Below are positions 10,101 through 62,520 of a DNA stretch of 64,000 bases, piece after piece. The position numbers were made by a program, and so were the translations under genes. The DNA is from Owenia fusiformis (Eukaryota > Annelida > Polychaeta > Sabellida > Oweniidae): positions 12,983,278 to 13,047,277 of the forward strand of contig CAIIXF020000008.1 of assembly GCA_903813345.2 (NCBI GenBank). The letters run 5' to 3'. How positions within the stretch are numbered: position 1 is the first letter of the stretch; each line of letters starts with the position of its first letter. The notes below the pieces were generated by a model. It was not told where the DNA came from. It searched no databases and saw only the letters and a program-made list of their open reading frames with translations.

Positions 10101-13100
10101 GCATCACCCCAATACTGGCCCCAGCCAGAGTGCTGTATGATAACAGCTCCTTTAGGGATTTCACCAAATATCTCCTCCCATTTTTGAATATCGGTGATGT
10201 CTAAAAATGCGTTAGGGTCTTTTTCGGCCTTCTTACGGATATCTACTACAACAGCTGGACCATGAAGTTCAGAGAGTGTTAATTCATGAAGCATTCTGCC
10301 ACCAAGTGAAAAATGTACTGGAGCATCAATATGTGTGCCAATATGCTCTGACATTTCCCAGTTATTCATGTACAGACTGAAAAATAAGAACTACACTATA
10401 GAATAAGTTATGTACAATGTGCAGTGGGCAAATGACACAATGAGTAACATTTACATGTAAAAAACACACCACAATTAGTAGTAAAGATTATGTCTCAAAT
10501 CTGCTTCCATGACTTATCATTACTGGTTCCCAGCAGGTTGAAGGGAACTGCAGTTAGTCTCATCCAAAATGGTGGACAAAACTATTTTTTTAGTATTCAT
10601 ATACTTTGTTTTCAGTTAGTACCCAGTAGAATCTGATTGCCAAATACTTTGCCGTATGAATTCATACATCGTCGAATGTAAGCAACTACAGGGTTTTAAA
10701 AAAAGAAACTGAAAGAAATTGCTATATATCATACTACACCAATTGTGTTCATCTTTTCAGAAAAGAAGAGACCTAAATAACAGTTCCTGTAGTAAGTTGA
10801 AAAACATAATGCCTTGGACACCTGCTCAAAAGACATTTGTAATAGAGAAATACATCAAAACGCAGTCAGGGGTTACTCCAACTGCAATAAAACCAAATTA
10901 CTTTTCAATTTTGGCACAAATTATCTTCATTCAATGAGTGGAAAGTCTGTAGAGTTTACCAAAGTCACTTTAGAGACTCTACACTCATGGTCGAAATAGC
11001 TTCTATAGTCTGACTGAACCAGGACGTATGACTGTGGGTTTTGAAATTTTCACTATTACAAATGTCTTTTGAGCAGATGTCTAAGGCATTACGTTTTTCA
11101 ACTAACTACAGGAGCTATATATTTAAGGTCTTTACTTTCTTTCTTGAAAAAAATGAACACAATTAGTTTAGTATTTTTCAAGATATAGCGATATATTTTT
11201 TGGTTCATCCTGTTTTTTTAACACCCTGTATGTTACAAAATGTCTCGGTTCCTTATCTCATCTAATGAAATTTGTAGGGATATTGAGAAACCATCAGTTC
11301 ATTCCTCTGTCTGTTGGTGTGGGTGATAACTTCAATTCCAGTTGATGAATTTGCCTCAAATTTTATAGGTGAATTGATAAAATCATACTTACTATGGTGC
11401 ATCTTCAAAGGTTCCATTATTCACATTCTTTTGACTTAACTTCAAAAGAGTAGGTAGATAGAGTGCATCAGTATTTAAAGTATATGTCATATCAATCATG
11501 TCACCATGCACAGATGATATAATAATCATCAAGACTAATAATCCTTTGATTTCCATAACTCTGCTTCTTCTGTTAAGATACAATGAAAAGTCTGTCTTGT
11601 TAGGCCGCATGGTTAATATATTCATTCATATTTTTCTTCTTTCACAAATTGATGAGGAATTTCTTTTTTTCTTTTACTTAATTTTGCATGAGATTTTGCA
11701 GAGTGAGCAAGGGAATGGTTTTTTAAAAAATCTAGTCTCAATTTGGAGAACTAAGTCCATCAGTCTACTGCATGTTACGCCTGCTTTGGATAATTTTGAT
11801 ATTTTTACATATTGTAAATTTAAATATCCATAATTTAATTGTGTTATTTCTAATTTCTATATTTTTCATAAAAACATGATTAGTTCAGTAAGACTGATGA
11901 ACATCGTTCTTCAAACCGAGACTTTTATTGATCGGTGTACCGCACGTTACGCCTGCTTCAGACAATTTTGATATTTTTACACATTGTAGATTCAAATGTC
12001 CTCTTTTGAATATTTATAATTTAATTTGGGTTTTATTTCTATATTTTTCATAAAAAATTATTATTCCAATAGACTGATGTACTTTGTTCTCCAAACTGAT
12101 ACTTGTCTTTTATTTACATCTGTCCATTGTGTCAAATCTAAGGAAAGAAGTATTCAGGCTTCATATCTTTGTGTATTTCTGACTCATATATCACATATTT
12201 ATCTCAACACTAGAATAAAAGTTATCAAATACATTTTTTAAAAAAAACTGATTGCAGGATTGGGCATATATGTTTCCAAGAGGTGCAGAGTAAATGTACC
12301 ATTTGGGACATACTGTATGCGGAGAGATTTACGGATGGATGTGTGAAGCACTTTATGTATTTACCCTGGCCTATCTAACAAAAAGAGTCTGTCTGTTGCT
12401 TTGGTATTTCAGAATTCACAAAAATAGGTGCAACAGCTGAAGGTTGAATTTGAAAAATAGGCCCATTCATCAAAAATTATGATCATAAAACATGTTTCAT
12501 TGTCATTCTAGGTTGCACACGTTTGCCGAATTTCCACTGGGCACTCTCCATGAAGGGGTCTTTTTTGTTCAGAGACAAGCAGAGTCCTATTTGAGATTAT
12601 ATACAAATTCTAGAGACAGACCCCATCTGAAGGGTGATGAAGTTAAAACGACAAAATGGTGGCATAGACCAAATAGAAATAAGAAGTTGGCTGAAAGACC
12701 TAGCCTTGTGGAGACTGATGGTTTCAAGTTGCAACCAACTCAAGATATTACTGGTCCCTATGCTTGGCAGATTACATTACCTCTGAAGTAAGTGTAACCT
12801 CTGAAGTAAGTGTTACCTCTGAAGTAAGTGTATACTCTGATCTCCACCAACATGATGTACCTACACTGCCCTCTGACTACAAGAGACAATATACAACTTT
12901 GACACTGATTACCATAATCACCATATTTAGGGCCCACGGCCACCCCTTGATAAGCACCCACCCTGCTTCACAAAGTTCATTTCAAGAAATGGCCAAGTAT
13001 TAATGAATACATTAGAAAATTATCGAATAAGCCATTCTTGGCAAGAAAACCTGCCATACATGAAATTCCCAAGGGATTTTTGACTTCTTTCATATACATG

Positions 13101-16100
13101 TATGTGTGCTGATTAGAATTGACTGAAGGAGGTATTTTGAACTTTTGAAGCATCTCAGGCGCTCACTAATTTCAGAGAATACATGCAGTAGATGTTAAAG
13201 ATCTCAAGAATGTAGCTTATACTAGGTTTTATCTGATTCTGGATGTTAAATGAATGGTTACCTAAATCTTGGCACTGATTGGATAGATATAGGCGTAATC
13301 AAAGAGTTGTCTTAAGAGTATAGTAGTTAGAGTATAGATGATATCTTCAGTAGCTCTCACAAAGGGTAGGATGTGCAATAACAGTAAAATTGTTTTTTAT
13401 TTGATTTGTATTTACGACCTATGAGTATCAATCATAGTGTTACCAGGTTAGTTAGGAACAAACTGTTTACGCCTGTTACTTTCTGTTAAGCGAGGTTTGC
13501 ATTGACTCTTAGTCCCGTCTTGTCAGTCTCTCTTTGTACTATTTGGTGGAATATTATCTCACATTATATTGCAATCACTCATGTGTTGTTGTTTTTTGTT
13601 TGTCTGACTGTACATGTACATCTGTCGGTTTATCCATCTGTCTGTCAACAAAAGTGGCATAGTTTATAACTTCTGTCGAAACTTTTAACGTTTTTTTGAT
13701 TTTTTAACTTTTAATGTTGTTGTATCATTAAACCCCTAAGCTGTACCGGTGGTCCCTCAAATTTTGTAAATGGACATTTATATCTCTGAGAAATTGGAAT
13801 ACTGTTATAAAATGAACTTAATTCATTTTCATGTTACAATAGGTCACACTGGCAAGACAAGTTAGCTTCTTTGGACATTGAGGTTGACCTTATTGATGCT
13901 GCCCATATGCTACTGCTACAAATCCTGATGGAGAAAGATGGACATGAAGCCGAACTGTTCCAGGAGTTGGCCATACTTGTCCAGACTCAAGCGTTTAAAC
14001 TGCACAGTTTGGCCAAGCATGCAAATTTTATACACATGCTTACCCTCACAAGTTTTGAGGTATGGTTATAACAATAAATAAAAACAATTTCAAAATGAGA
14101 ATATGTCTTTAAATTTCCAAATCGTCTTCCCAGCTTACTTATTTTGCAAAATGATATGGTTTGCTAATTGAGATTTACTTCTTATGTACTATTATTTATT
14201 TAGTTCTATTATCTAGTCATATCAAAACCATTTTTATGTCACCACCAAAAAGTGGTGACATACTGTTATGGTCTCCATCGGCGGTTGATAGTTGGTGGTT
14301 GGTGGTTGGCGATCGGCGGGTGATGGTTGCCATCTGTAACAAATTCATAAGACTTCCAATAACTGAACAAATACTGTTAAGACTGATTTCAATTTTTTTC
14401 AAGATCATCTACAAGTTTTCAGAAGTTCAAATTAAGATATCACCTTCAGTGAAAAAAAGTTAGTCTTTTTTTATTTCAATTTGCTTCAAATTGACCAGTT
14501 TTTTCAAAATCATCTACAAGTTATCAGAAGTTCAAATCTGACTTTAGTTTTTAATTTGACCTTCTCAAGGTCAAAAAAGGTAAAAAGGTATTTTTTCAAC
14601 TTGCTTCAAATTGACCAATTTTCTTTTCAAAATCATCTTCAAGTTCTCAAAAGTTCAAATCTGACTATAGATTTGACCTTCAATGACATTCTCAAGGTCA
14701 AAAAAGATTTGACCTTCTCAAGGTCAAAAAGGTCTCTTCAACTCACTTCAAATTGACCAATTTTTTCAAAATCATCTACAAGTTCTCAGAACTTCAAGTC
14801 TGTCTTTAGATTTGAGATTTCACCTTCAATGCACTTCTCAGGGTCAAAAAGTTTTTTTCAAATCATCTTCAGAGTTTTCAGAAATTTAAATCTGACTTAA
14901 GATTGAACTAATAATATTGTGAGCAACTAGGTGGTGACGTTTTGTCATGTTAATGCCTTGTTAGCCATGTTAGCTGGTTGTATTAATACATGTATATACA
15001 TGTGGTGTTTTCCAGGTGGGCAATACAGCATTGATCTACAATTTATTCACAGAGTTTCAACTGAGCGTTCACAAGACATTTCAAAGCACCTTGTAAGTAC
15101 CATACATATCTGCTCCATTTGTGAATAGTATCTGTATTTTATTTATCCCTATAGCCTATTTTGTATATACTTATTTATGGTCAGGTTCATATCAAGAATC
15201 GATCTTACCAAAAGGACATGGGTCATTTGAATGTTTGCCAAATAATTGGGCAATTATAAGTACTGTATGGTGTTTAAGATGTTATTTGTCTCTTCTATTC
15301 ATCTTCTGAATTCAGAGCATGATGTCATTCAAACATTTGCACCAAAATCATGTTTTGTATTGACGAGTAATAAAAAATGTCATTACATTGCTCTACCACT
15401 TAGTTTTGGAGCCAACTCTAATAAAAATGTCATTCATAATGATAAGTGTTATATTTGTGAATTTTGTAACAGGCAGATGCAGATTTGCCAACTTGAGGTG
15501 ACGGGGAAAGCTGTAAAGGGAATACTGGGGACCATCTCAGAAGCAAGTTTCTCACCTTCTTTTTATCAAGAGGTATTTATTTAGGAATACAGTACAAGGG
15601 CCGATCAAAAAGTTTCTTACTGTTATAATAAGAGGAGTTGGATGCTCAAACTTCTCCTATTGTAAAATCTAGAGCCAACGGTAAGAAACTTTTTGAATGG
15701 CCCTTGTACATCTGTTCTTTAATTTTATCCTGAATGTAATATTTTTAATCTTAAATGAAGTATTTTGAAAATATCCAGAAAAATCTTTTCACAGAAAGAT
15801 TTTCTAAATCCACACATCTTTACATCTATATATTTTACGTCTATAGATGTTTAGAAAAATGTAGTCATGTAAAATATGTTGAACCCAAATTTTTCACAAG
15901 TTATACTTTTGCAGAATTGAGGAAAAATTAAAAAATATAGTTAGGATGATTTTCCCACTTCTTAGGTCTCAAAAGAAGATTAATGGCTATGTTTCATTGT
16001 TATTGTGTTCTAGACAGCAGCTACTTTGAAGAATGTAGAGTGGCATTTGAGAACCATTCAGATGTTACTAGTTGATTCAAGACTCGAACTTTCTCCTTAC

Positions 16101-19100
16101 ATAGAGGTAGAGTAAGGTTATCATTACATAATGGTACAGTGAGGTTAAACTTACATAGAGGTACAATGGGGTTACATTTACATACTACAGTAGTGCGGTT
16201 ACATTTACATATGGGTACAGTAGTGAGGTTACATTTACATAGGGGTACAGTAATATTACCCCTATATGTAGTGACACTAAGGGTCCCAAATGGATTGCGC
16301 ACAAGCTCTGTATATTCCCATGATAAAATATTTAGTTAAAATATGATTAAAGAAATTATAAAAAATCAGCAGAATCCAACATCATCCTTATGCAATCAAT
16401 GTTAAAATAAAAACATTAAAACATAAATATATTAAATAAATAATATTTTCAGAGCTTTGTTGCAAACTTAAAGGGAGTGTTTCCAGACACCTTTAAGAGG
16501 GGAAGGGTTAACCTGAGAGATCCTGGATTCAACTTCCAGCAGTGTCAACATGGGGCAGAAATTGCTCATATAAATAATCATTCCAAGCAGTGTAAGTGTG
16601 TAGCATATACCTGTAGAGAGAGTTTGTGGTCATACCCCATCTTACTAGCCACTGTCTATATTCCCCATAAGAAATCATGCTTTCATACACTGGACTTTTT
16701 TGAGATTCTAGAGACTGAAATAGCCATAGCACAATGTAGTACCTCAAACATATATATATGTGGAGATTTTAATGCAAGAACGGGGATAAAGGCAGATTAT
16801 GAAACAGAAATATTTGGATCTGACAGTGAGCTCAGTTACCTTTTACCCATACTCAATAGCACTTCATTTTTTACTGACAGGGCATCAAATGATATAAATA
16901 ATCAAGAAATTCTTAGAACAAATGGCAAAGAACTATTAGAATTATGTAAGACCACAAATATGCAAATAGCCAATGGGAGAGTGGGTGAAGACAAAAATAT
17001 TGGAAAATACACCTGCATCAGACCTAATGGTGCTAGTGTGGTAGATTATGTAATTGGATCATCAAAGGCTCTCAAGAACATACAAAACTTTAGAATTCAG
17101 GCAAAATTACCAGAATCAGACCATTGTCCTATCTCATTTTCAATACTTACTCCAAAATTATCTACTTTAAGCGACTCAAATACTAAATGTACAACAGGTT
17201 TATATACTAACATTACTAAGTTCAGATGGAATGAATCAAAATCAACTGTTTTTCTGTCAAACCTCAAATCACCATTATGTAATTCAATACTCCATGAAAT
17301 ATCACTTGACCTGAAATACCAGGATTGTCCAATAGAACACACAGTAGATAAGCTCAATACAACACTCTCACTTGCAGCAGAAAATGTTTTTGTCAAAACA
17401 AAAGTATCTAACAAAACCACAAAATTTCCTGCAAATAAATGGTTTGATGAAAAATGTAAAACTCTGAAATCAAATATTCGCATAGCAGAAAAATTAGGAA
17501 CAGAAACGAGTGCTCTACATAAAGAATATAAAAGTCAAAAGCAAAAGTGTAAGCGCCATTTTCACAACACAATGTATCATGACCTATTATATAGCCTAAA
17601 TGATGACCCACCTCACTTTTGGAATTTATTAAACTCAACCCAATCAACTAACAGAGAATGTGTCAAAATAAGAGCATCTCCATCTGCTATATTTGAAAAC
17701 TTCAGCAAATTAGCCAAACCTCCTACACAATATAATTTTAATGATAATCACAATGAAAAGATCATTGATTTTCTTAACACTTTTGACAGTCACAAAAAAT
17801 ATGAAAATATGTATGCAAATGATCCAACCAATATCCTTAATACTCCAATACTTAATGAAGAAGTTGATGAAGCAATCAAAAATATGAAAATTAACAAATC
17901 CCCTGGGTTGGATGGTATTCCTGGAGAATTCATTAAATCATCAAAATCTGTCCTTAATAATATAATTACCCAAATATTTAACAATATATTTTTTACAAAT
18001 GAGTATCCCGAACAATGGGCCTTTGGCTTAATTTTTCCAATCCCAAAAACTAAGAAAACGAGTGACCCTGATACACTTAGACGTATCAATGTACTACCTG
18101 TACTTGGAAAGATTTTTGAAAGTGTCCTTCATAATAGACTTGAATTTCATACAGTATCTAATCATAAACAGGATATACTTCAAGGTGCATATGAAAAATT
18201 TAGTAGAACAGCTGATAATCTATTTATTTTGAACAACTTAATAGAAAAACATGCCTTTATCAAAGAGCCCCTATATTGTTGCTTTATTGATCTGAAAAAA
18301 GCCTTTGATTTAATTGATAGAAACATGCTCATATATAAACTTATTCAAAGAGGCATCACAGGTAATATGTTAAATGTCATTAAATCAATGTATTCTAAAT
18401 CAAAATCTTGCGTTAGGACTGATGCTGGCATCACAGATACATTCACAAATGAGGTTGGTATAATTCAAGGTGGAATCCTTAGTACTTTCCTTTTCAAATT
18501 ATTCATATCAGATGTAAAGGATGCTCTAAACACTGAATATGGTACCTTCATTAATGATCTTTCAATAACACATCTTGCATGGGCTGATGATATTGTGCTC
18601 TGCGCTCCAAATCCAAGTTATTTACAAAAACTTTTGCATGCTTTTGAAGATTACTGTAATTCTTGGCGCCTTGTTATAAACTGTAAAAAGACTAAAGTTC
18701 TTGTCTTTGGAAAGAAGAAAAATACACCTATAATTAACTTTTCTATCCTCAATCAAACAATTGAAGAAGTATCAGAGTATAAATATTTAGGCTGCATTCT
18801 TTCTACCAAAAATCTCAAGTCAAATTCAAATCATTTAGCTCAAAAAGCAACAAAAGCCATATTTAAGCTTAGAGGCTATTACAAAGTACTAGGTAATCTA
18901 CCAGTAGACGTAGCACTAAATCTTTTTGATAAATTGATTCTACCAATACTTGAATATGGTAATGAAGTACTTGCACAATCTAAAAGTTTTGAGATCATAG
19001 AAAAATTACAACTGAGATTTTTAAAGCAACTTTTACATGTTAAAACACAAACTTCAAATCTAGCAATACTTGGTGAATTTGGAAGGTATCCCCTCGTTAT

Positions 19101-22100
19101 AAGAATGAAAGTTCAAAAAATAAAATATTGGTGTCGATTACTTACTCTTCAATCTCAACACAAACTTAATATAGCGTATCAACAGAACCTTCAAATCTAT
19201 CATTGCGGTGGGAAATCATGGGTGTCACAAATCCAAAATATTTTGAAAGAATGTGATTTACAAGATATGTGGGATAATCATTTAAAATCTGATATTGACA
19301 TTCAGTCATATTTAACACTTCATCTTAAAGTATCAAATAAATTGAGATCTCTTTACAAAAACCAATGGCTTGCTCTAATCAACGATCACTCAAAAAACCC
19401 ATGCCTGAGAACATATTCTTTATTCAAAGTTGAATTCAAAAAAGAGCCTTTGCTTATGATAAAAAACAGCAAACTTAGAAACATATTATGCAAAATAAGG
19501 CTAAGTAACCACAAATTAGAAATTGAAATAGGTAGACACAAAAAGAAAGATGGACAAAAGATACAACTAAAAGATAGACTCTGTTTAAATTGTAACCTAA
19601 ATCAAATAGAAGATGAACTACATTTAATTTTTTACTGCCCTTCTTATACAAACCAGAGAGCAATATTCTTCAAAACACTAGCTGAAAATATTCCTATTAG
19701 CACCTTAATGCCTGAATTTTTAATAAAGGAGATCATGAACAGCAAAATTAACATATTAAAATATTTTGCCAAATTCCTCATAGATTGTAACAATGTAAGA
19801 ACATTCATATCTAGTCTCTAACATTGTATAAGTTTGTAAATATTTGTAAATTTATTTTGTATCATAGAATGTACATTTTGTAGCAATCATGTTTGTCAAG
19901 CCTATCTGAAAAGGTGTTTCCAGTCTGAATGTATACATCAACACTACATTAGAATCATGATGTAATGATTTTGTATTTTTCCATTTTGCTTATGACTGTA
20001 TATTTGTATATAAAACACATGTAAATAACTGTATAGTGACCCATGTGTCGGAGAGACTGACATATATAAGAGTCAATAAAAGAATATATATATATATATA
20101 TATAAATAACCATTCCAAGCAGTGTAAGTGTGTAGCATATAGTACCTGCATAGAGAGAGTTTGTTATTTTGATAATTTCAGTTCTCTATTTTTTGTTGTA
20201 TATGTAAATATAGATAATATGAAATATGATAATGTTCCAATATCTGTGAATAGACTAGATGCGAGTAGAAATAATTTATGTCATTAAATATTCGAAATTC
20301 AGTCAAAGTGATGTCATATTTGAAGTCTACATGGAAAAACTAACATGAACCACAAAAACTGATGAATATTTAAGTTAAAGTAACTATCTACTATACATGT
20401 ACCTGCCATGCTATCTGACCCAAATGAGCCACCTGGTGGTGAAAACTACTACCTACTCGCATCTGAGTTATTGGTGACATATAATTGTGCATGTATATAT
20501 GTATATATGACACAGATGTTTGTGTTACTAAGAGAGACTTTTGTATGAGAAGGAAAAAATTTTCCCTGTAATATCTGTTTTATAAAAAAGTAATAAATTG
20601 TTAATACTTGACCCTCATAGAAACTGATTTTAATGTTCATACACTAGTATAAACCAAGGGCGAACGTAATACCCGAAACATTCCTCTCTGACCCCTCTAT
20701 ACACCATTGTGTAATGCAGATCATATAAAGCCCCGGATGTTGTGTCGTTTCGTTTGGTACACAACTTAAGCCCCTTGTACTATATAAGCCCCTGTATAGA
20801 CTTGTATTACCAGACATAGAATTTCTATGAGGTCTGTTCACTAATGAAGGTTAAAGTCAGATCTATTTTATTTACTTCAGATATCAATGTGAAATTGAAC
20901 AGAAAAAGTGAGACTTGGCCGAAAGTTATAGCCACAGAGGCAGTTCTAGGAAAGGTAAACCCCTGAAAAATTAGACTATTTAATTAAAAAGGCATCAATT
21001 ATACATGTTGTTTACTAACTTTGATATTAGCAAAATTTTGACGAGGCAACACAAACTCTAATAAATTACTCGTACATCGTAAAATGATAAAAATGCTTTT
21101 CACTGAACCAAAAATCTAAATCTGAAAAAGATGCACTGTACATTTATTGTGAAGTGGATGTGATTGTACCTAAAAGGTACCCTAACATTGTAAAAATATT
21201 TTAATTGAAGTAAAAACATGACTCTTGACTAGCCACTTTACCTCTATCTGATGCTTTTGTCTACTTGACTCAAGCCTTTTTGGCTCCCTCCCCTTTAGTT
21301 CCTCTGGTAAGTCTTGGTTTGGAGAACAGTTCCCTAGGCTAATAATTATGTTTATGAAAAATATAGAAATATCACCCAAATTAAATTATGAATATTCAAA
21401 AGAGGACATTTAAATCTACAAGATGTGAAAATATCAAAAAAGTCCAAAGCAGGTGTAACGTGCAGTAGACTGATGAATTTCGTTCTCCAAACCGAGACTA
21501 GTATTTTGCATTTTATTTTTGCAACATATATTTTATTTTTTATTAGTATATAGCTGACACACATGTTGATGATGTGTGGAGTAATTTCTTGATGGAACTC
21601 TTGACTGGGAACTGTTTACCAAGGAACCCATACCCACTAATACTTTCTAGGCTCTACGAGGCATCTATGAAGTAAGGCACCATCTTATATGTTTTGCATT
21701 AAATTCTCTTTGTGAATGGTCTGATCCATTATCTGAAAACAATGTTATAGAAAATACGTTGTATGACATGATTCAGACAACCTAAAACAACTAAACTGAA
21801 ACAATGCATATATTTGATGAAATAGTTGTATTTTGATACATAAAGAAGTCTCACTGTGTGTAAATGTACAAGTTAAAACAGCAGATTCTCTATTAATACA
21901 TGTATATTTTTAGAATGGAAATGCATCGGGAGAAAGATGAAAAGTTAGTTTCCCGTTTACTTCATAGAAACGCTCAACTACAAGACTCAGACAATTTTAT
22001 ATATTTCATCCCTGGAGGCTCTGCACATGGTAATTGTTTTATTTAATGAAATTATTATAGTTGTACATATAGTAAATAAATTTCATATCCTCTGTCATTA

Positions 22101-26415: not shown

Positions 26416-26525
26416 AAAAGTTTGTCTTCTCTATGAGATTAGGATGTGAATAGATTTGCCTTCTATTTGAGACTAGGATGTTCATGAAACACCACATAAC
26501 AATTTGTCATATGTAAATGATTTGG

Positions 26526-26948
26526 CGAACTCCCGTGCAGTGATATATCACTGCGGCGGGCAGGTATCTCACCGTAAGCATGGTAACATCGTAATAAACA
26601 ACTGACGTGATTGGTTCTAGTCCCATGCTCAGGTTGTGTGATTGTAAAATTTAGACAATTTCATTGGTTTAATTGCGCGTATTAACTAATAAACAACACG
26701 TGCGGTAAACTTTTATCAACACAACTTTTACTCAGAATTCCTTCCGCGGGGATTTCCTCTTATATTTCATTGATTTTGGAATATTTTGACAAAATAATTA
26801 TTGGCGAACATAAAAGAACATATATTTTATAAGTTGTGTGAAAAACAAGTACATCTGTGACAAAAAGGGGGACTATCTTCCCCAAATTTTGGGGATTCCA
26901 TAATCTGCCCGCCGCAGTGTCTATACCGAGACACTGCATAGGAGTTCG
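26526..26948. mobile_element. MITE with ~40-bp inverted ends
   Basis: Left 'cgaactcccgtgcagtgata' continuing to 'actgcggcgggcag', right 'ctgcccgccgcagtg' to 'cactgcataggagttcg'. Each end also contains a small palindrome ('agtgatatatcact', 'gtgtctataccgagacac'). No reading frame of note. It may supply the first AATAAA to the plus-strand gene. Confidence 0.8.
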
Positions 26949-27530
26949 ATGATTTGGGTGTTTTTCATGGAGCGCCACATAGAAGTTTATCTTCTATATT
27001 TGACAGTGTTCTTGTGATCTTCACGAAACTAAGTACATTCTTGGACACTGGAGATATGGGATAAATAAAGTCCTCCAAAACCTGTGATAAATGTATATAC
27101 AAACTCAGGAACCTAAGATATAAACGTGGGGGTATAGTGAACATCAGGAAATGCAGGACATTTGATATAAGTAGAGGTGTTTCATTTCCCCCCTAGCTAC
27201 TGGTAGCAATCTCAAATATTAGAACAGTTTCAATTTATTCTGTTTTTGTGCAATGCAATATAAAGAAATTGGCTTTTTTGCTATAATTCACAATAAAAGA
27301 ATAGTTGATAAAACACTTGTCATGTATGTTGCGTATAGATTTTTAGATTGACTAATTTCTGATTATACATTCTATGAACCATTCCTTGAATTTAAAAATA
27401 AATCTCTAAACTTAGGTGAAATAGGTCAACATTTTGGTATGACGTGTTTGGCTAGCTACAAATTTGGAAATATGCCTTGTTATTCACACATTATAAACAG
27501 TTGTCAAATCTATTCAAAATGATTACATCC

Positions 27531-28996: not shown

Positions 28997-31900
28997 CTGT
29001 AATACAAGCCAAGACTTACATCATGTACAAGTAAAGCCTTATAACATGTACAAGTAAAACCTTATGACATGTACAAGTAAACATTTATAACAAGTAGAAG
29101 TAAAACTTTATGACATGGACAAGTAAACTAATATATCATGTACAAGTAAAACCTTATGACATGTACAAGTAAACATTTATAACAAGTAGAAGTAAAACCT
29201 TATGACATGGACAAGTAAACTATTATATCATGTACAAGTAAAACCTTATGACATGTACAAGTAAACATTTATAACAAGTAGAAGTAAAACCTTATGACAT
29301 GGACAAGTAAACTATTATATCATGTACAAGTAAAACCTTATGACATGTACAAGTAAACATTTTTAACAAGTAGAAGTAAAACCTTATGACATGGACAAGA
29401 AAACATTTATAACAAGTAGAAGTAAAACCTTATGACATGGACAATACAAGTAAACCACTATTATGAAGAAGGTCATGAATTTATGATGACTATTATGACA
29501 AAAAGGAATATGAAAAGATCAAGGAAAGCATACCTTCTCCTCTAAAGCTTCAACATCAGGAGATGGCTTTGTGATGAGCAGTTCTCGAACTTCTTCCTTG
29601 AAGTCGGGGAATCTATCATGGAATATAGCCAGACACCACGCCTCTTTGAAGTAACTGAAAGTTAAATATACAACTTAACTATGAGTAGGTCTTGATTAGC
29701 CCTTGAGAATAACTCAAAGATAAACTTGAAATATGGCTTTTAAATCGGAGAGAGTTGGAGTACTTCTTCATTTAGCCTTAACATCGGGCTTCAAAAAAGA
29801 TTCCTTTGTTTAAATAGTATGCATATACTGTATTGAAGTCTTTGAATGTGAATATTTCACTTTTATACACACATCTCAAAATATTTGCTTTTAGATAAGA
29901 TTACATCATCTAAATTATGGTATTCAAATACCAACAGAAGGCTTTTTATATTACATAAGAAATAAATCAATATTTATCAAGTCCACTGAAGTACCTAATG
30001 GTATAGTAGCTATCAGAATAGTTTTTAATTTCCTCTTAATACATCATTAAAACTGAATGGGAATACAAAAAGGCCCTAAGAGAGGAATATGTCAAATAGC
30101 TTTAAAGATGGATTAAAAGAAAAATAAATAAAAGGTTTCTATGAACTGAGAAGTATAATAGAAAATAATCTAGAACTACTCTGACTATTAATGGAAATCA
30201 CTTAGATGTAATCCAAGGCATTTAATGACATTTAACTCCTACATACAGTAAAACCAATGCATTAAACACCTTTAAAATGCACAATTTGGAATGTGAGTAA
30301 CTGATTCACATAAATTATTCAGAACCTCTTCAAGTGAACACCTTCTAAGGTGCAAATCTCAATGCTATTACTTTCAAATCTCAATGCTATTACCTTCATG
30401 GTATACCTCTCAAAGCTAAATATACCCATAGTAACGAGAAAAAAACTAACCATACAATATCCTCTTTAAATGGGTTTTACAGGAGAAGGATATTTCAAGA
30501 AGATGTAATGATTACTGAAGTTTGAATTTCTTACCTGTATAGATCTTTAATAAGACCTTCATCGAACCTTGAGAGAAGATTGTTCAGGTATCTCTCATGC
30601 ACATTGTATAGACACATCATATTACCATTGTTGAGAACCTAGAAATATATTGTAAAGGTATATTAAATTACAATGGCAGAGTACCTAGAAATACTTATAC
30701 GCACATCATATTACCTTGTTAAGTACCAAGAAATATATTGTAAAGGTATATCAAAATACAATGACCTCGAAATACATTATTTAGGCACATCGTATTACCA
30801 TTGTTGAGTACCTAGAAATATATTGTAAAAATATATTAAATTACAATGGTGGAGTACCTAGAAATACATTATTCAGGCTTATCATATAACCATTGTTGAG
30901 TACCTAGAAATATATTGTGAAGGTATATTAAATTACAATGATAGAGTACCTCGAAATACATTATAAAGGCACATCATATAACCATTGTTCAGTACCTAGA
31001 AATATATTGTAAAGGTATATTAAATTACAATGGTGGAGTACCTAGAAATACATTCTAAAGGCACATCATATTACCATTATTGAGTACCTAGAAATATATT
31101 GTAAAGGTATATTAAATTACAATGGTGGAGTACATAGGAATACATTATACAGGCATGATGGTGAAGTACCAAAAGTATTAGGTCCCTCAAGAAGACATAA
31201 TATATTTATTTATCCCACATCTGAGGTCAAATCTGTAGAATAACATATATATATTTATGATATTTTGCAAATGTTTTGAAAAAAGTGATATCTGTTGAAT
31301 AGGGAGAATATTCCATGGATATCACTTTTCCACCGATTTGAAAATTCCGGCAAATGTGACGTGCATGGTTACATATATTATATGCTTACTTGGTGATTTC
31401 ATGACATCACAAATGTGGAAATGATTAATGTTTTGGCTATATAGTTCAAAGGACAAAGTAAAACTGAATGTTGTTTTGAAATGGTTGGTTAGGTGAACTA
31501 TGGGATAAATAGAACATCCTATGATTTTTTCGTGATATAATTTTAATCCATTCGTTGATATCAATATCTGCACTCATTCGCTACACTAACTCGTCCAGAT
31601 ATTGATATGAACTCGTGGATAAAAATGACAGCTCTCAAATCATAGTATATCCTATACAACTCCCTTGGGATATTTCCAATATCCAAAACCTCCAATAACA
31701 TAACATTTATGTACTATTTGTGTAGAGACAGGACCACCTTCTCATTGTTTATCATAGCTGTTGTATATTATCCATTATTACCCTAACATACAATATCAAA
31801 TTGTAAATACACAACCAATTAGCTATATCAATGATAAACAAACTTATCATACAATGTATATTATTAAGCTTAGAGAAGAAAATATTCAAGATTTTAGTGT

Positions 31901-55900: not shown

Positions 55901-58900
55901 CGGAAGTCTATTTTCTACTTTCCTTGATCTCTAATTATTATACAGCACAAAAATGTCATTGTGATAACATTTCAGTGACCATATTTCATAGACAAAGATT
56001 ATGCAAATACACAGTCTAGAACACAACTTGCAAATAAAAGACAACAATTTGCACCCTGATATTCAAAGGGCAGCATTAAAGTTCTACACTCTAAGATCTT
56101 GAAGAAACTATTGGAGCTTTTTGCTTTAATGGTATTCTCTTGGGGTTTCAATATGTAATATGTAGGATCTTTGTTAGACTAGCTTCAAGACCCTAGACCC
56201 CCCCCCCCTATTTATTTCAACAACCTGTTGATGAAGCAAGGGGTATGGAGTGGGGGTCTTGAAGCAAGACTAGATTTTTGTGCAACATACATTCGTGTTA
56301 GAAATATATAGATCCAATGATTTTTTCTGAGTGAAAGAGTAATAAAAAATAATAAAAGTGAATGTCTCCTTTACTCCTTTAGAGGGTAACCAATGTGATG
56401 GAGAGGCTGTCTCATGTTGAACAATTTCTTGAATGAGTGCATTGAACTGAAAATTATATCACCCCATAAAATGCATAGGAATTAACCGATTTTAGTATCG
56501 TTAAATGTATTAAGCGATTTGTTTTTATTCCGAAACAATATTTATATTAGTTTCTTCATGAGCATCAAGCTTACAGAATGTTACTGTATTCACATTCAAA
56601 ATGGAAAAAATTGAAATTGTTGACAGCAATAAAACTTCCCAGATGGAAAGTCAATAATTCATATGGCTTAGAACATTCATGATTTAATTGAGGTATTATT
56701 GCTTCTGTGAAGTCTTGCACCCCTACTGACATGTATACCTTCTATACAAGTATGGAAACAGATAATGGGAGAGGAGCAGCTTGATGCAAGACTAGCTCCA
56801 ATGCTCCTGTGTAGCCTTACACCAAGCCCTTGTATACACCCCTACTAACATGTATACCTTCTATACAAGTATTGAAACAGATAATGGGGAGCAGAGGCTT
56901 GATGCTAGACTAGCTCTATTGCTCCTGAATAGCCTTGCACCAAGCCCTTGTATACACCCCAACTGACATGTATACCTTCTTTACAAGTATGGAAACAGAT
57001 AATGGGAGAGCAGGGTTTTGATGCAAGACTAGATCCAATGCTTCTGTGTAGTCTTGCACCAAGCCCTTGTATACACCCCTACTGACATGTATACCTTCTT
57101 TACAAGATTATGTCTTTACAAGTATGGAAACAGAAAATGGGAGAGCAGGGGCTTGATGCAAGACTAGATCCAATGCTTCTGTGAATAGCCTGTTACAATA
57201 AAAGCAATTATTTAACAAAGATCTATGAATTGTGAACCTCTTTAACAAACCAATGGTTCTAGCACTAACAATCTTCCTGGATACCATGTACAAACTGTAG
57301 TGCCCTTTCTATGATATGATTTTGCTTCTTTCAAAGAGAGATTCGTCAAATGTTGCTAGGCTCTGACCCTTTGGGTAAAACTACTCACTCATTTGAGAAT
57401 TTCTTAAAAGAATGTTTATGAACTTGAATTATAGTTTTTTTGTCATTAAAAAAGTTTAAACCACTTTAACTCATGTTGAAGTCTTACCTTATACAAGTTA
57501 AATGTGTTGTGTGTGAACTTTTCTAGTTCTTGAAAGCCCACGCTAAAAGGCATCTTTTGGAAGAGCCGTGAGTTTTAAAAAGTGATATGAGCCATTATAC
57601 TAAAATTTATGTTCTTTGAGCCACATAGCTTAGAAATAATCACAAAAATATATCCTTTCTATCACAAAATTAAAGTATTTTTTTAAAGGTTTCTTATGAT
57701 CAATAATAAGAAACCAAACAGTAATTTTTGAAATAACAAAGCCAAATCACATGAAGAAAAGCATAGAGAATTATAAAATAAAACATTTGGACAATCTGTA
57801 AAAGAGTGCATACCTTTATTTAAACTACAATTTAATTTCTACAGTTCTACTTCACATTTTTCCATCCAAAAACAAGGTCAAGAACACTCCAGATAAAAGA
57901 CAAGACTGGCTGTGCAAAAAGACACAGACGGGAATTCCCAAAAAGTATATTCAAAGGGCTTAGTTTGTTGCCTGTAAACATAGTGATTATACAGCCCCTG
58001 ATAAAAATGTCAATTTGCTCTTGTTAATTGTGCATTTGATGTGCCTAGTAGAATTAACAAACTGATTTTTTTGGCTTCTAGCTTCAAAGATGGATTTAGC
58101 ATTAAAACATTGCAATTTACATTACTCTTCACTTAATTTGAGTTTAATTAAGGCCAGGATAAAAAATAAATGTTTACCATATCCTCTTAGGTAATTGGTT
58201 AACTCAACCTCAAGTCAAGTCAATCTAAGTCAACTCACCCCAAGTCATCTCTTTCTCTTGCATCTATTTCAAATCAAACAAAAATAATTCCTGCCGTACT
58301 TATGGCAATTAAACTACATCTTTAACAGATATGAACTATTTCAACAAAAATATGTTATACTCATACATAACTAAATTCAAGTTTTGAGAATTTGGAAACA
58401 CAAAACAAGTCTCAACATGGACCTAACACAAGACTAATTACTTTGGCCTAACTTGATCAGAGTGACATTCTATCACAAGGTGGAGGTTAACTTCTACAAT
58501 TTCTTTCTCCATGTACTTACTGAGTTGATAAAAATGTATACAGTACTACAAGCATTTGCTGATGTATATAGGTTGCTCTGACAAACAGTTAATGGGCCCA
58601 ATAACTTATACTAAAAAAGTAGCATTTCTAAAAATTACCTCACTGCACGTAATAATTCATTTAAGGCAATTGCATTAAATCATCAAATACATTTAATTTG
58701 CGAAATCTTGCATATTTCAAATTGCTCTCTGAAATGGATTATTATTTCTTCTTTTATTTTTTCTGTCTATAAATCTCACTATACTGCTTTCAAGGAATTA
58801 CTTTTTCCTAACGATCAATCTTAATTTTATGTTTAATTTACAACCTAGATATAACATGTCTATATTTAGATGTTTTTCTTACAGATGATCAGCGATGACA

Positions 58901-61873
58901 GACCTGAATGAATCAACAATGATTGGCCGATATAACTGATATAAAAACCATGTTTTATGTATGCAGTTGATGCACCGAAGACCCCACCTGCATTAGTTCT
59001 TGCGAAACTGTCAAACTCGAGATAATCCCAGAAGAGGGGAAATTTACATTACAGATAAACAATAGCGTTTATATACCAATTTGATTAACCTTGTTCAGCT
59101 GACATTCAGAATTATATTTGATAAAACTGATAATAGAAACATGGTATTTGATTGGTTGATAATTCAAGGAAGTTAACGCTAACACGCTGCAGTTCACCAT
59201 CGGAATACCATAGCCGAAGTTGCATCAATTGAGTTAGTAAATGTGAGGGATAATTTCAGGTCATATACGTGACAAAACGTGACAAAAGTGTGAGGACATT
59301 AGGTACAAGTAAGAATATACTGATACTCTCCAGTTATAACTGACAGAGCGAGTACACTGACTCTATAGCCAAACCAATCAACCATGATGAAAGTAACATG
59401 ATTACTTTAACAGTTAAATTATCAATCAATTCTAAAATTACAAAGTGCATGGCTGAAGTGAATTAATAGCTAAATTCAGCAAAGGAGTTAATTTACGTTA
59501 TTATAACATTTCGAATTAGACTTAAGTAACATATTATTGGGGAGTTAATGTGATTGAACAATTAACCAATAGAGGATCTCCGTGTATGATTTAATGAAAA
59601 GACTTACACGAATTACAAAGACAAATTGTCATTAGTATTTAGGCGATGGCATCCCTTTTAGTAAGGAATCTGGAATATTCTACTGTTTAGTGAAGACAGT
59701 CAGACACGCAGTAATTAAGTTACATGAACTTGATTCCGTTAGATAAACTGACACCAACATTGTCTGTTGCAGGCAAAACCAATCAATCTGTCTGTATGAA
59801 CAATCAACAAGATAATAGAAACAATCAACCACCCAAGAGAAACAATCAACCAGACAAAATATACCAGCCAAGAAGAGCAATTAACAAGACAAAATAGACA
59901 ATCAACGAGACTACAGAAACACATATCTGGATAAAATAAACAATAAAGCAACCAACAGAAACAGTTTCAGGAGAACATTTTGAAAAGACACGATGGATGT
60001 AGGTAACATTATATATGTGGTACTAGAAGTTGTCATTGCCATTACCGCTGTGGTGGCTAATGCATTAGTTCTGTACATAGTCTACAAACATAAGCACCTA
60101 CATAGTATAACCAACTATTTCATCGCAAATCTCGCAGCAGCTGATCTACTTGTGGGGTTATTCGCGATTCCATTCGCACTGATCACAGCCAATGGACTGC
60201 CATATGATTTCTACGGATGCCTGTTTATGAACTCTCTCGTTGTAATCTTGACTCAGAGTTCAATCTTCAGTTTGTTGTCTATAGCAACAGAAAGATTCAT
60301 CGCGATCAAAGAACCATATCGCTATCAGCGTCACTGTGGCGGGAACTTTACAGCATGGGTGATAATATGCACATGGCTGGCCGCCATCTTTATTGGATTA
60401 TTACCTATGTTTGGATGGAATCTTGGGCCTAATCTAGATGGAGGAAAATGTCACTTCATGAAAGTTATTGATATGCAGTATATGGTTTATTTTAACTTTT
60501 TCGCATGTGTTCTTGCACCCTTAGTCGTCATGCTGGGAATGTACATGTATATCTTCATCATCATCCATAAACAGACCAAGAAAATTGCGAGTCTTCAAGT
60601 TGGCGATGGCTCGCCACAAGTATCCGACGTTAGAAATAAACGAGTGATCTTTCTTAAAGAACGACGAGCAGCGAAATCACTTGTTATACTAGTTGTGTTA
60701 TTCGCAATCTGCTGGCTACCACTACATATCGTAAACACCATAAAGCTGCTATGTCCGCATTGTAACATCTCCCTTGCATGGTTTCATGGTGCTATCCTTT
60801 TAAGCCATGCTAACAGTTCAGTGAATCCTATACTGTATGCGTACATGAATCGTAAAATACGATTTGCTATAGGGCGACTATGGGGTTTAAAATGGGGTGA
60901 AGATCTGGAAATTTCTCAAATAAGATCTTCAGTTGTACGCAGATATGGGTCCCCGGGAAAGAAGAAACACAAACTTATTGTGATAACGAACAAACGACAT
61001 TCCAAGAATCAGTCTTCTAAACAGAATAATAGTAAACACTGTTCAAGACATTCGCATAGTCAACATTCGCATAGCCAGCATTCGCATAGTCAACATTCAC
61101 ATAGTCAACATTCACATAGTCAACAGCAACATATTCAACAACATTCAATTATTCAACAACATAACCTAAGCAGTCAACAACACAATGCTCATAACTCAAC
61201 TCATAGTCAACATTCTCAAAATCAACACATTTCCTATATTACTCAACAAAATCCACATTGTCCACAAATTTCTGAAAGTCCACAAAACCCTCACTGTCCG
61301 CAAAACTCACACAGTCAACAAATTTCTCATAGTAACAAAAATACACATAGTCAACACTCAAAAAGTCAACAAAATTCCTATAGTCTACAAAATTCATCAA
61401 GTCAACATAGTCAACAAAAGTCCCATAGTCAACAAAACTCTCACGCCACACCACACATATCAGCAGAGTCAAGATATGGGTAACCATGCTTTATACTTTC
61501 TGTACAGACCAAAATCTGCATCTGAATGGACTACATTGCACTTGTAGTGAAAATATAATATACAAGTAATCAGTAAGTAGGGTAGGGGCTTGCTATTCCA
61601 GTACAGAAATCTCTACTTTTAAGTGCAATAAAAATCCCTTCAGATTTTCAAATCATTTTTGTATGACTGAACATGACTGTCAAATACATGTAGAGAAACC
61701 TACCTGGATTCCAACCTCCTTAGAATTAAAGTTAGTATGGGTCCACTGATCTGCGTGGTAGGATCTCTGGAACTTTGTAAGGGACCCAGCTCCTCGAATG
61801 GATGGATCATTGGTATGGAACTCTGCATCAATCACCAACCTCCCATCATACACCAAACAAGCATCATTGATAG
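28826..61873 (-). CDS. CFAP61: CFAP61, C-terminal 289 residues (7 exons)
   Basis: Cilia- and flagella-associated protein 61, a component of the axonemal radial spoke/calmodulin-associated complex needed for ciliary motility. Seven exons on the minus strand join in phase: 61704-61873, 36756-36879, 36003-36079, 35411-35515, 30535-30638, 29534-29654 and 28826-28996. Signature stretches are NDACLVYDGRLVID, the FHTNDPSIRGAGSLTKF segment (end of the FAD/NAD(P)-oxidoreductase-like domain, where the GD-type motif is usual), WTHTNFNSKE, LRLFDPTLEPQPE, YKMVETITCLS and LFHDRF-like AIFHDRF, ending NYYHLPMYAKPGML. These match the vertebrate family in order and spacing as I remember it. The 5' part lies beyond the window. 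The gene is spread over more than 33 kb, with one intron of 24.8 kb that hosts a GPCR gene on the other strand. Two exons carry minisatellites that copy their acceptors. Confidence 0.94.
29017..29460. repeat. Intronic minisatellite, ~91-bp higher-order unit
   Basis: Subunits of about 30 bp ('tgacatgtacaagtaaaacc', 'ataacaagtagaagtaaaac', 'acatggacaagtaaactatt') alternate in a regular order of three, giving a repeat of about 91 bp. It begins about 20 bp from the acceptor of the last CFAP61 exon but does not include it. Confidence 0.88.
29534..29654 (-). CDS. CFAP61: CFAP61 exon (penultimate)
   Basis: YFKEAWCLAIFHDRFPDFKE to SPDVEALEEK; enters after a split Ser codon (AG|T), leaves in phase 0. 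Donor GTATGC. Confidence 0.93.
30246..30478. mobile_element. Possible degenerate pogo-like MITE
   Basis: Starts CAGTAAAACC after 'ata' and ends GGGTTTTACAG. Interior phrases 'aaacacctttaaaatgcac' and 'aacaccttctaaggtgc' resemble the other elements of this family. The right end is one base off, so boundaries are uncertain. Confidence 0.45.
30535..30638 (-). CDS. CFAP61: CFAP61 exon (third from end)
   Basis: VLNNGNMMCLYNVHERYLNN to FDEGLIKDLY plus AG, phase 0 to 2. Acceptor 'atttctag'. The first ~24 coding bases and the acceptor are the first half-unit of the minisatellite that follows at 30615-31160. Confidence 0.92.
30615..31160. repeat. Minisatellite copying a CFAP61 splice acceptor
   Basis: Units of about 92 bp built from two related 46-bp halves ('gagtacctagaaatatattg' and 'gagtacctagaaatacatta'), roughly six copies. 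On the minus strand each half carries TTCTAG|GTACTC, and one half also carries the exon-like AACAATGGTAATATGATG. Many exon-like decoy acceptors therefore lie upstream of the true exon. Confidence 0.88.
32066..32342 (+). CDS. Possible orphan exon or retained fragment, unidentified
   Basis: An open stretch of 92 codons bounded by an acceptor-like 'ttcttatttag' and a donor-like GTCAGT. It begins GHMSDVFVTLEGETLDKILS and includes ESPRFKSLMKLSRLGNCYFN. Composition looks protein-like, but no partner exon is seen and it lies antisense within a CFAP61 intron. It could be an exon of an unseen gene, a relic, or chance. I cannot assign a family. Confidence 0.3.
33159..33551. mobile_element. Inverted-repeat element, arms ~135 bp
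   Basis: The left arm from 'cagctggaaagtaacatttt' through 'ttgctatacctgcacatg' is inverted at 33417-33551 ('catgtgcaggtatagcaat' and 'aaaatgttattttccagctg'). About 120 bp of unrelated sequence separates the arms. Non-autonomous element or inverted duplication. Confidence 0.78.
34885..35255. mobile_element. MITE with CTGTAAATTGCTTT ends
   Basis: CTGTAAATTGCTTTAATTTG at the left is inverted at the right ('caaataaaagcaatttacag'), and the flanks are 'ata' and 'tat'. 371 bp without coding content. Confidence 0.8.
35411..35515 (-). CDS. CFAP61: CFAP61 exon
   Basis: 35 codons, GRELITGTPGGSPEYFRLHV to TITCLSKK, phase 0 to 0. Contains the family-typical YKMVETITCLS. Donor GTAAGT. Confidence 0.94.
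36003..36079 (-). CDS. CFAP61: CFAP61 exon
   Basis: Completes a Gly codon, then GYNYLHVGKPGLNTPLDALM-AQNDY; phase 1 to 0. Donor GTAAGT, acceptor 'gttccag'. Confidence 0.93.
36756..36879 (-). CDS. CFAP61: CFAP61 exon
   Basis: LAMAMLRLFDPTLEPQPEVP to TSAVLP plus one base, phase 0 to 1. LRLFDPTLEP is close to the family consensus. The next exon upstream is 24.8 kb away. Confidence 0.94.
37513..39934. mobile_element. Possible composite pogo-like element, or two adjacent MITEs
   Basis: Left end TA-CAGTAAAACCTGTCCGATG, right end CGCAGGTTTTACTG-TA. Sub-terminal phrases match ('ctctctgtagggaaaacct' and 'ctctctatagggaaaacctc'; 'gaacaaggaa' on both sides). The middle is a 162-bp tandem array and a 'gacggacatacggacag' microsatellite block ending 'gtggtggggacataaaa'. 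Without a search I cannot say whether one element was split by a later insertion. Confidence 0.5.
38090..39000. repeat. 162-bp tandem array, ~5.6 units
   Basis: 'aatcatccctgaaaatttga' recurs at 38400, 38562, 38724 and 38886, exactly 162 bp apart. Units also carry 'aatccaaaatggctgccttg' and 'atgcgtagacaagacttta'. Because 162 is a multiple of three, open frames pass through several units; I do not regard them as genes. Confidence 0.9.
40800..41510. repeat. 52-bp minisatellite, ~13 units
   Basis: Unit 'cccttgggtggtgctatagc' + 'caattgtgggagattctgaa' + 'aacatagcctt'. The period is 52 bp (e.g. 41041 to 41093). Degenerate at the right end. Confidence 0.92.
43590..44485. repeat. 131-bp satellite, ~6.8 nearly identical units with dimer pattern
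   Basis: 'gatactgatttttagatatt' recurs at 43719, 43850 and 43981 and onward, every 131 bp. Variants alternate: units 3 and 5 have 'cataattcc' with 'tcttctaaa', units 4 and 6 have 'cctaattcc' with 'tcttcaaaa'. This indicates amplification of a 262-bp dimer. Confidence 0.92.
45571..46700 (-). mobile_element. 5'-truncated LINE fragment, (AAC)n 3' tail
   Basis: Contains the C-terminal end of a non-LTR retrotransposon ORF2 followed by about 190 bp of 3' UTR and an (AAC)n-type tail at 45571-45592 (plus strand 'ttgttgttgttgttgttg'). It differs from the LINE at 16.6 kb in sequence and tail, so it belongs to another family. Confidence 0.75.
45787..46698 (-). pseudogene. LINE ORF2 C-terminal fragment (303 codons)
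   Basis: Lacks endonuclease and catalytic RT motifs. It retains the RT connection/thumb-type region (NKTTLKLLDTLHYRAAILVS, NWPTLEARRLSHIGVLMFK) and a C-terminal Cys/His cluster (CRCGLKQTTKHFLLHC). The frame is open but truncated at the 5' end, hence non-functional by itself. Confidence 0.82.
48420..48715. repeat. Tandem repeat, ~3.5 units of ~85 bp
   Basis: 'ccatatgactatattgcctt' followed by 'ataggagttggaatatga' and 'attgaatcatga' recurs at roughly 48490, 48560 and 48640. Confidence 0.8.
52130..52610. repeat. Degenerate 'ctctagtgaacacct' array
   Basis: About twenty imperfect units of 20-25 bp ('ctctagtgaacacc', 'ttgctcttgtgaacac') lead to 'ccaggttttactga'. This resembles the interior and right end of the pogo-like MITEs seen at 8575 and 63195, so it is likely an expanded copy. 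Confidence 0.7.
54385..54695. repeat. 21/42-bp tandem repeat
   Basis: 'tatgccagtcataaaaaatc' alternates with 'atatgccagtcataagaaac' in about 14 half-units. Confidence 0.9.
56700..57185. repeat. ~120-bp tandem repeat, ~4 units
   Basis: Units contain 'tgacatgtataccttctata', 'agtatggaaacagataatgg', 'gcttgatgcaagactag' and 'gccttgcaccaagcccttg'. The third unit has a partial internal duplication near 57100. Confidence 0.88.
59763..59965 (+). repeat. AACAATCAAC-type repeat in the GPCR 5' leader
   Basis: 'aacaatcaac' or close variants occur about ten times with spacing of roughly 16-20 bp, ending 28 bp before the receptor start. Likely transcribed as 5' UTR if the promoter is upstream. Confidence 0.6.
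59796..59897 (+). CDS. Possible upstream ORF (33 codons)
   Basis: ATG at 59796, stop TAG at 59895-59897, encoding an Asn/Gln-rich peptide from the AACAATCAAC repeat. It ends 95 bp before the receptor ATG, so it could lower translation of the receptor. Whether it is in the mRNA is unknown. Confidence 0.3.
   Translation: MNNQQDNRNNQPPKRNNQPDKIYQPRRAINKTK
59993..61483 (+). CDS. Adenosine receptor-like class A GPCR (A2-type), intronless
   Basis: 496 residues, seven membrane segments at roughly 7-31, 42-66, 79-101, 120-141, 163-190, 229-250 and 262-284. Class A hallmarks are N24 (1.50), D51 (2.50), ERF at 100-102 in place of DRY, CWLP at 240-243 and NPILY at 278-282. Adenosine-receptor hallmarks are GCLF before TM3 and LTQSSIFSLL in TM3, MVYFNFFACVL in TM5, PLHIVN in TM6 and LSHANSSVNP in TM7. 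Ligand-contact positions kept: E12 (1.39), T87 (3.36), F155 in loop 2, H245 (6.52), N248 (6.55), S271 and H272 (7.42/7.43). The acidic residue that follows the loop-2 Phe in A2A is Met156 here. C76 and C153 should form the conserved disulfide. The tail from about 336 is basic and then His/Ser/Gln-rich with HSHSQ repeats. The start has a strong context (A at -3, G at +4). It lies antisense in a CFAP61 intron, 220 bp from a CFAP61 exon. AATAAA at 61627-61632. Confidence 0.93.
   Translation: MDVGNIIYVVLEVVIAITAVVANALVLYIVYKHKHLHSITNYFIANLAAADLLVGLFAIPFALITANGLPYDFYGCLFMNSLVVILTQSSIFSLLSIATERFIAIKEPYRYQRHCGGNFTAWVIICTWLAAIFIGLLPMFGWNLGPNLDGGKCHFMKVIDMQYMVYFNFFACVLAPLVVMLGMYMYIFIIIHKQTKKIASLQVGDGSPQVSDVRNKRVIFLKERRAAKSLVILVVLFAICWLPLHIVNTIKLLCPHCNISLAWFHGAILLSHANSSVNPILYAYMNRKIRFAIGRLWGLKWGEDLEISQIRSSVVRRYGSPGKKKHKLIVITNKRHSKNQSSKQNNSKHCSRHSHSQHSHSQHSHSQHSHSQHSHSQQQHIQQHSIIQQHNLSSQQHNAHNSTHSQHSQNQHISYITQQNPHCPQISESPQNPHCPQNSHSQQISHSNKNTHSQHSKSQQNSYSLQNSSSQHSQQKSHSQQNSHATPHISAESRYG
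61045..61475 (+). repeat. Coding minisatellite for His/Ser/Gln tail
   Basis: A 15-bp unit 'cattcacatagtcaa' is repeated five or more times near-perfectly (about 61050-61125) and then degenerates to 'agtcaacaaaattc'-type units up to the stop. It creates open shadow frames on both strands. Confidence 0.85.
61627..61632 (+). terminator. Polyadenylation signal of the GPCR gene
   Basis: AATAAA 144 bp after the stop codon, giving a short 3' UTR that would end close to the antisense CFAP61 exon at 61704. Confidence 0.6.
61704..61873 (-). CDS. CFAP61: CFAP61 exon (first visible)
   Basis: Completes an Ala codon, then INDACLVYDGRLVIDAEFHT to NSKEVGIQ; phase 1 to 0. Contains the oxidoreductase-like NDPSIRGAG motif. 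Acceptor 'tttttcag', donor GTAGGT. The first ~15 exon bases and the acceptor seed the minisatellite at 61858-62520. Confidence 0.95.
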
Positions 61874-62520
61874 CTGAAAAATAAACATTTAGTGCTATTT
61901 TCCTTGCAACCATCAATAATGGCTGAAATATAAACATTTAGTGTTATTTTTCTTGCAACCATCATTGATGGCTGAAAAGTAAAGATTTGGTGTTATTTTC
62001 CTTGCAACCATCAATAATGGCTGAAATATAAACATTTAGTGTTATTTTCCTTGCAACCATCAATAATGGTTGAAAAATAAACATTTAGTGTTATTTTTCT
62101 TGCATCCATCACTGATGGCTGAAATATAAACATTTAGTGTTATTTTCCTTGCAACCATCATTGATGGCTGAAAAATAAACATTTAGTGTTATTTTTCTTG
62201 CATCCATCACTGATGGCTGAAATATAAACATTTAGTGTTATTTTCCTTGCAACCATCATTGATGGCTGAAAAATAAACATTTAGTGTTATTTTCCTTGCA
62301 TCCATCACTGATGGCTGAAATATAAACATTTGGTGTTATTTTTCTTGCATCCATCACTGATGGCTGAAATATAAACATTTAGTGTTATTTTCCTTGCAAC
62401 CATTATTGATGGCTGAAAAATAAACATTTAGTGTTATTTTTCTTGCAACCATCATCGATGGCTACACTGTAAACATTTAGTGTTATTTTCCTTGTAACCA
62501 TTATTGATGGCTGGAATATA
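61858..62520. repeat. 49-bp minisatellite copying a CFAP61 splice acceptor
   Basis: About 13 units of 'gatggctgaaaaataaacat' + 'ttagtgttattttccttgca' + 'accatcatt'. The first unit is the exon start and acceptor ('gcatcattgatagctgaaaa'). On the minus strand the units read TTTTCAGCCATCAATGATGG, an acceptor followed by exon-like bases. Confidence 0.92.

Follow-up and report, generated by a model that had tools for sequence, protein, structure and literature searches.

Minisatellites that begin in an exon and run on into the neighbouring intron carry the splice junction with them, and a locus that holds several of them raises the question of whether tandem duplication starts preferentially at exon–intron boundaries or is simply tolerated there. 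The window examined here is the whole stretch of 64,000 nucleotides that was analysed (G000:C8:12983278-13047277), part of a 498-Mb animal assembly (GC 33-35%; eleven contigs of 32-62 Mb seen). A sequence-only reading had counted six junction duplications in it and proposed that minisatellites are seeded at junctions with a bias. We found the observation largely right, the mechanism largely known and the bias weakly supported. In our judgement the arrays are probably 'mirage' minisatellites, in which a boundary would be duplicated by chance and, the duplication being nearly neutral, would then grow, possibly with a modest junction excess.

Arrays across splice junctions in the window

TRF gave 44 rows in the window, and four of the arrays overlap a coding boundary (12788, 16107, 30638 and 61873; Table 1), so that the count is four, plus one abutting array, rather than six. 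Each of the four carries 9-38 exon bases plus the splice site. The extra splice sites described earlier are intact and strong, scoring like the true site in most copies, at 12788, 30638 and 61873; those at 16107 are weak.

Table 1. Tandem arrays and adjoining exons in the window
Feature	Position	Strand	Basis
Exon ending at donor array	12573..12787	+	Gene finder; phase matches exon 13843
Donor array	12779..12840	+	TRF: 18 bp x 3.4
Exon, gene shared with 12573..12787	16014..16106	+	Donor 16107; gene finder and sequence
Donor array	16092..16265	+	TRF 16097-16252, 27-30 bp x 4-6
Abutting array, 23/46/92 bp	29003..29444	-	TRF; 6 bp from acceptor 28996
CFAP61 exon (VLNNGNMMCLYNVHERYLNN...)	30535..30638	-	Match to solved CFAP61 chains; gene finder
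Acceptor array	30601..31155	-	TRF: 46-bp unit, higher-order 92/184 bp
CFAP61 exon (INDACLVYDGRLVIDAEFHTND...)	61704..61873	-	Match to solved CFAP61 chains; gene finder
Acceptor array	61858..62521	-	TRF: 49 bp x 13.6

The first donor array holds the GTAAGT donor three times, and both further copies are intact and equal the true site in score (3.2). The first of the three donors (12788), in phase by eye with the exon at 13843, is the only one that avoids a stop: read on in the frame of the exon, the sequence at once reaches a TAA, a stop that use of either later donor would add to the message. The unit of the second donor array, of about 27-30 bp, resembles TTACATAGAG/GTA...; where the true site scores 2.0, the four donor-like copies reach -1.4 to 0.9. 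The exon before it ends in phase 0 and the exon at 16455 begins likewise (by eye), and because of this phase we prefer donor 16107 to the gene finder's choice, which lies 5 bases downstream. Pfam searches with the single exons and the joined peptide of this plus-strand gene (12.5-26 kb) named no family.

The two acceptor arrays belong to CFAP61. One includes 38 exon bases and a TTTCTAG acceptor (30638), the AG of which is kept in 7 of 9 copies with a median score equal to that of the true site. The other includes 16 exon bases and a TTTCAG acceptor (61873); here the AG is kept in 12 of 13 copies, with a median of 3.7 versus 3.8 for the true site. The abutting array, absent from the earlier reading, adjoins the last exon of CFAP61 at its acceptor, and the site itself lies outside the array. 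From phase and homology, the exon-side site is presumably the one used in each case. That the outermost copy leaves the exon intact, as the earlier reading had stressed, holds true and needs no special explanation, because geometry plus purifying selection suffice. Within a CFAP61 intron, a rhodopsin-like GPCR is encoded in a single open frame (59984-61483, +); a 15-bp array accompanies the Ser/His/Gln repeats that make up its C-terminal tail.

Two cases that had been counted as junction duplications are excluded. The LINE at 16568..20164 (+) is flanked by a 60-65-base direct repeat around its open reading frame (16568-16627 and 20100-20164, 65 bases, 91%), with no minisatellite. This repeat looks like a long target-site duplication; at about 60 bases it is unusually long for one, and it holds a GTAAGT. 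The 8.5-kb similarity, read earlier as ghost exons (8.8 kb), matches 12380-12475 at 75% over 99 bases and lies next to a tandem copy of a cyclase region. The putative-cyclase gene is present in tandem (3859-6120 and 9495-11585, with blocks 85% and 92% identical), and Pfam PF04199 was found in the second copy, the sole copy scanned. A stretch of about 1.5 kb between the two copies (6180-7723) is 90% identical to its reverse complement, as a long palindrome or a terminal-inverted-repeat element would be.

Within the window, a junction lies in 3 of 19 arrays with a period of at least 20 (0.8 expected, P 0.04) and in 2 of 14 with a period of at least 30 (0.7 expected, P 0.16). This test used manually compiled lists of exons and arrays, its cut leaves out the array of 18-bp units, and the window was picked for showing the effect.

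Sample of loci and null model

We turn to 29 other 10-kb loci, 16 with dynein and 13 with myosin genes. The dynein AAA_8 domain search had revealed an exon piece recurring every 118 bases in C4, and L011 is the locus that prompted the test. The dynein loci are 16 of 18 places, leaving out one in C2 and one at C9:30.94 Mb with a single open frame; the myosin loci are 13 of 19, picked by eye for closely spaced matches, leaving out 6. Loci were omitted before repeats were inspected. At the omitted C9 place (G000:C9:30940615-30941394) the whole AAA_8 domain lies in a single open frame, and it is split at the other dynein places. Elsewhere on C9 (G000:C9:37986009-37994334), one part of the myosin head (profile about 18-84) is matched twelve times in tandem within about 8 kb, resembling the clustered alternative exons seen in muscle myosin genes.

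Exon calls came from tblastn comparison of paralogues and from a small purpose-written gene finder, and array calls from TRF. We worked with three exon sets: a preset one that required homology support or a score of at least 20, one limited to supported exons, and a wider one that admitted exons with support or a score of at least 8. The test was fixed after the dyneins and before the myosin replicate; the supported-only and wider sets were added after the myosin result. Arrays with periods below 20 (45 of 118) were dropped before counting, as were 17 exon copies that had been predicted within the array of L011. This left 73 arrays with a period of at least 20 and 42 with a period of at least 30, including those wholly in exons (3 and 1, respectively, in the wider set); the bootstrap and locus-removal analyses excluded arrays wholly in exons and so used 70 and 41 for the wider set. 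All P values are one-sided and uncorrected, and many settings were tried.

The null model formalizes the neutral account. A short tandem duplication would arise by chance across an exon–intron boundary and expand through slippage or unequal exchange. It would be nearly neutral, with the exon-touching copy preserving exon and splice site and the remaining copies sitting in the intron and being spliced out with it; duplications confined to an exon, or covering all of one, would be purged. Near-neutral boundary duplications combined with purging in exons lead one to expect junction arrays where exons are dense, in a genome that produces many minisatellites. In the model, a tolerated duplication is accordingly one that is intronic or crosses exactly one junction, every single-junction duplication counting as equally harmless, and the expectation for each array is the proportion, among all harmless placements of a segment as long as its period, that spans a junction.

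Junction counts against the neutral expectation

Junction arrays recur outside the window: with a period of at least 30, at least one is present in 11 of the 29 loci with supported exons and in 12 with the wider set. This recurrence, and the finding that copies in the 30.6-kb array differ from one another and form higher-order periods (46/92/184, TRF), make collapsed or expanded repeats or some other assembly artefact a very improbable source of the arrays, although copy number could still be wrong. The analysis does rest on the sequence of one assembly, and one amphioxus array was seemingly misassembled in the draft, according to its authors in the extracts of PMC3087553.

The dyneins gave an excess under the preset rules (10 of 41 arrays with a period of at least 20 versus 5.3 expected, P 0.025; versus 5.9, P 0.05, with the best-scoring period as unit). 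The preset myosin replicate showed none (3 of 32 versus 2.7, P 0.51). With the wider set, chosen afterwards, the myosins gave 6 of 32 versus 3.7 (P 0.15), and 6 of 18 versus 2.85 (P 0.046) for periods of at least 30. Pooled counts for periods of at least 20 were 13 of 73 versus 8.0 (preset, P 0.043), 13 versus 7.4 (supported, P 0.026) and 17 versus 9.9 (wider, P 0.012). For periods of at least 30 they were 12 of 42 versus 6.4 (P 0.016), 12 versus 6.0 (P 0.009) and 16 versus 7.85 (P 0.0015), respectively. Across settings, before the curation described below, the neutral expectation for these longer periods was 6.0-8.9 of 42, and moving the TRF score threshold between 40 and 150 left the picture unchanged.

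Such numbers could reflect a mutational bias by which tandem duplication starts more often at exon–intron boundaries, for which a base composition step, R-loops, a nucleosome edge or microhomology between splice motifs are candidates. In its favour, bootstrapping over loci at periods of at least 30 gave observed-to-expected ratios of 1.99 (1.36-2.73) with supported exons and 2.06 (1.45-2.58) with the wider set. The excess also persists at these periods without L011 (11 of 38 versus 5.3, P 0.008, supported; 14 of 37 versus 6.9, wider) and without both L011 and L027 (10 of 35 versus 4.6, P 0.008; 11 of 34 versus 5.9, P 0.018); for periods of at least 20 in the wider set, removing both leaves 12 of 63 versus 7.7 (P 0.068).

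Against it stand the myosin replicate, in the preset and the wider set alike, the many uncorrected settings, and the effect of curation. Four arrays had predicted sites of both kinds (L007 5296, L008 2289, L013 3899 and L025 2894), because the gene finder called copies within the array as exons, and the L008 2289 case is doubtful. With these within-array calls and L008 removed, periods of at least 30 gave 11 of 42 versus 5.95 (supported, P 0.023), 11 versus 6.4 (preset, P 0.037) and 15 versus 7.8 (wider, P 0.004). Taking the best-scoring period as well lowers the excess at periods of at least 30 to 11 versus 6.7 (supported, P 0.054) and 11 versus 7.2 (preset, P 0.083), with 15 versus 8.8 (P 0.015) in the wider set. 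At periods of at least 20 it becomes 12 of 73 versus 8.2-8.8 (P 0.10-0.15), or 16 versus 10.9 (P 0.06) in the wider set. With either choice of period, the curated P values at periods of at least 20 run from 0.02 to 0.15.

A genome-wide count of donor-word pairs showed no clear excess of donors. It gave 205 rows versus 89 for the reversed word, rows that a few long arrays dominate; among the donor matches listed, the pairs fall into 17 places versus 13 reversed, which is within counting error. Rows less than 5 kb apart were joined by eye into one place, along the stretch common to both lists (C1 to C8:16.84 Mb, the first 100 donor rows). The single donor word is not commoner than its reverse (4020 versus 4455); many of its matches must therefore be something other than donors, which leaves this test with little power.

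Taken together, the counts suggest a weak junction bias of about 1.4-2-fold. Because the observed count tends to lie above the neutral null, pure neutral seeding may be insufficient, and a modest extra excess at junctions, up to about 2-fold, may exist alongside it. We regard a real mutational bias towards junctions as possible and rather unlikely. The stronger claim, that boundaries are about twice as likely to seed minisatellites and so give a steady mutational input for intron lengthening or gain, is likewise tentative. Of the pattern proposed in the earlier reading, then, the recurrence of junction arrays in other loci stands more firmly than the preference itself.

Anatomy of the arrays and signs of selection

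The copies outside the window often keep their splice signals. The array at L011 3925-6046 has a 118-bp unit of 91 exon and 27 intron bases repeated 18 times, with an intact donor in all 17 further copies. At L010 4398-6171 (91 bases x 19.5) all 18 acceptors are intact, and at L027 3018-4088 (91 bases x 11.8), at an exon predicted without homology support, all 11 sites are. At L016 9189 the splice signal is kept in none of 4 copies. Donor and acceptor boundaries are equally represented at periods of at least 30, with 4 donor-only and 4 acceptor-only arrays for supported exons and 6 of each for the wider set, plus the 4 with predicted sites of both kinds. At L011 2257-2463 and 9816-10000 there are two further duplications that start with acceptor-like sequence and have exon-like letters; the former is counted in the wider set alone and the latter is uncounted.

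Retention of strong sites might mean that the arrays are maintained for alternative splicing or regulation through the extra sites. One locus fits such a role: at the dynein exon 1309-1654 of L003 (sense), a 138-bp duplication repeats 46 codons in frame and without a stop; the repeat lies between two donors (1456-1734), either of which could therefore serve. The remaining evidence points away from maintained function, which we consider improbable. The period is a multiple of 3 in just 4 of the 18 arrays examined, the units at 12788 and L011 hit stops on read-through, and high identity among the copies of young arrays suffices for intact sites. Selection for coding repeats left no trace in these periods. 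No array with a period of at least 20 lies wholly within supported exons (0 of 73 versus 8.3 under uniform placement; 3 versus 10.5 with the wider set), and this absence, together with the 4 of 18 periods divisible by 3, makes the extra sites simplest to read as intronic passengers. The position of the junction within the unit showed no departure from uniformity (KS P 0.20) in the 18 arrays, comprising all 4 from the window and, from the wider set, 14 of 17 (L008 2289, L011 2257 and L016 9189 omitted).

On the account by chance duplication, then, geometry and purifying selection together explain why the copy beside the exon stays intact, and we infer the neutrality, the correct splicing and the growth mechanism of the arrays.

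Relation to known systems

The anatomy matches the 'mirage' minisatellites of amphioxus, a known kind that is frequent in this genome. In the extracts of PMC3087553 and PMC3902484, mirages are described in Adh3, the globins BflGb6 and BflGb9, troponin C and PGBD5, the last two added by PMC3902484. As here, they are minisatellite-like duplications across intron–exon boundaries at the 5' or 3' side, with units of 10-160 bp and AG/GT signals in many copies. Units that span the boundary occur in four arrays of the window and in 11-16 of 42 elsewhere (period of at least 30), on donor and acceptor boundaries alike and with AG/GT retained in many copies. Mirages also undergo turnover with internal homogenisation, on which the higher-order periods of the 30.6-kb array may bear. 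For amphioxus, RT-PCR suggested normal splicing and the authors proposed mirages as a source of new introns (both in the extracts of PMC3087553); differences in length between haplotypes and somatic instability have also been reported there. The present work differs in counting the arrays over 29 loci with a null model, and knows them from the sequence of one assembly.

Other systems are related more loosely. In potato RdRp, the extracts of PMC4974935 describe intron gain by a boundary-crossing tandem duplication, which, as here, brings ready splice signals; there a new intron resulted, whereas here the result concerns duplicated junctions. Internal tandem repeats that alter gene structure in human paralogues (PMC2812944) are alike by their description, and a study of Drosophila intron positions and tandem duplication (PMC2891723) is related by its title. 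Among the matches listed, we recognised in titles and abstract openings no animal report of junction-spanning minisatellites outside lancelets.

In the sources as extracted, mirages come so far from a handful of lancelet genes; here 11-12 of the 29 loci, which belong to large conserved genes, contain them. The neutral null offers a yardstick for any claim that junctions are favoured or that tandem duplication has produced an intron. The arrays amount to a frequent natural experiment, in which the spliceosome presumably selects the right site among up to about 18 near-identical ones.
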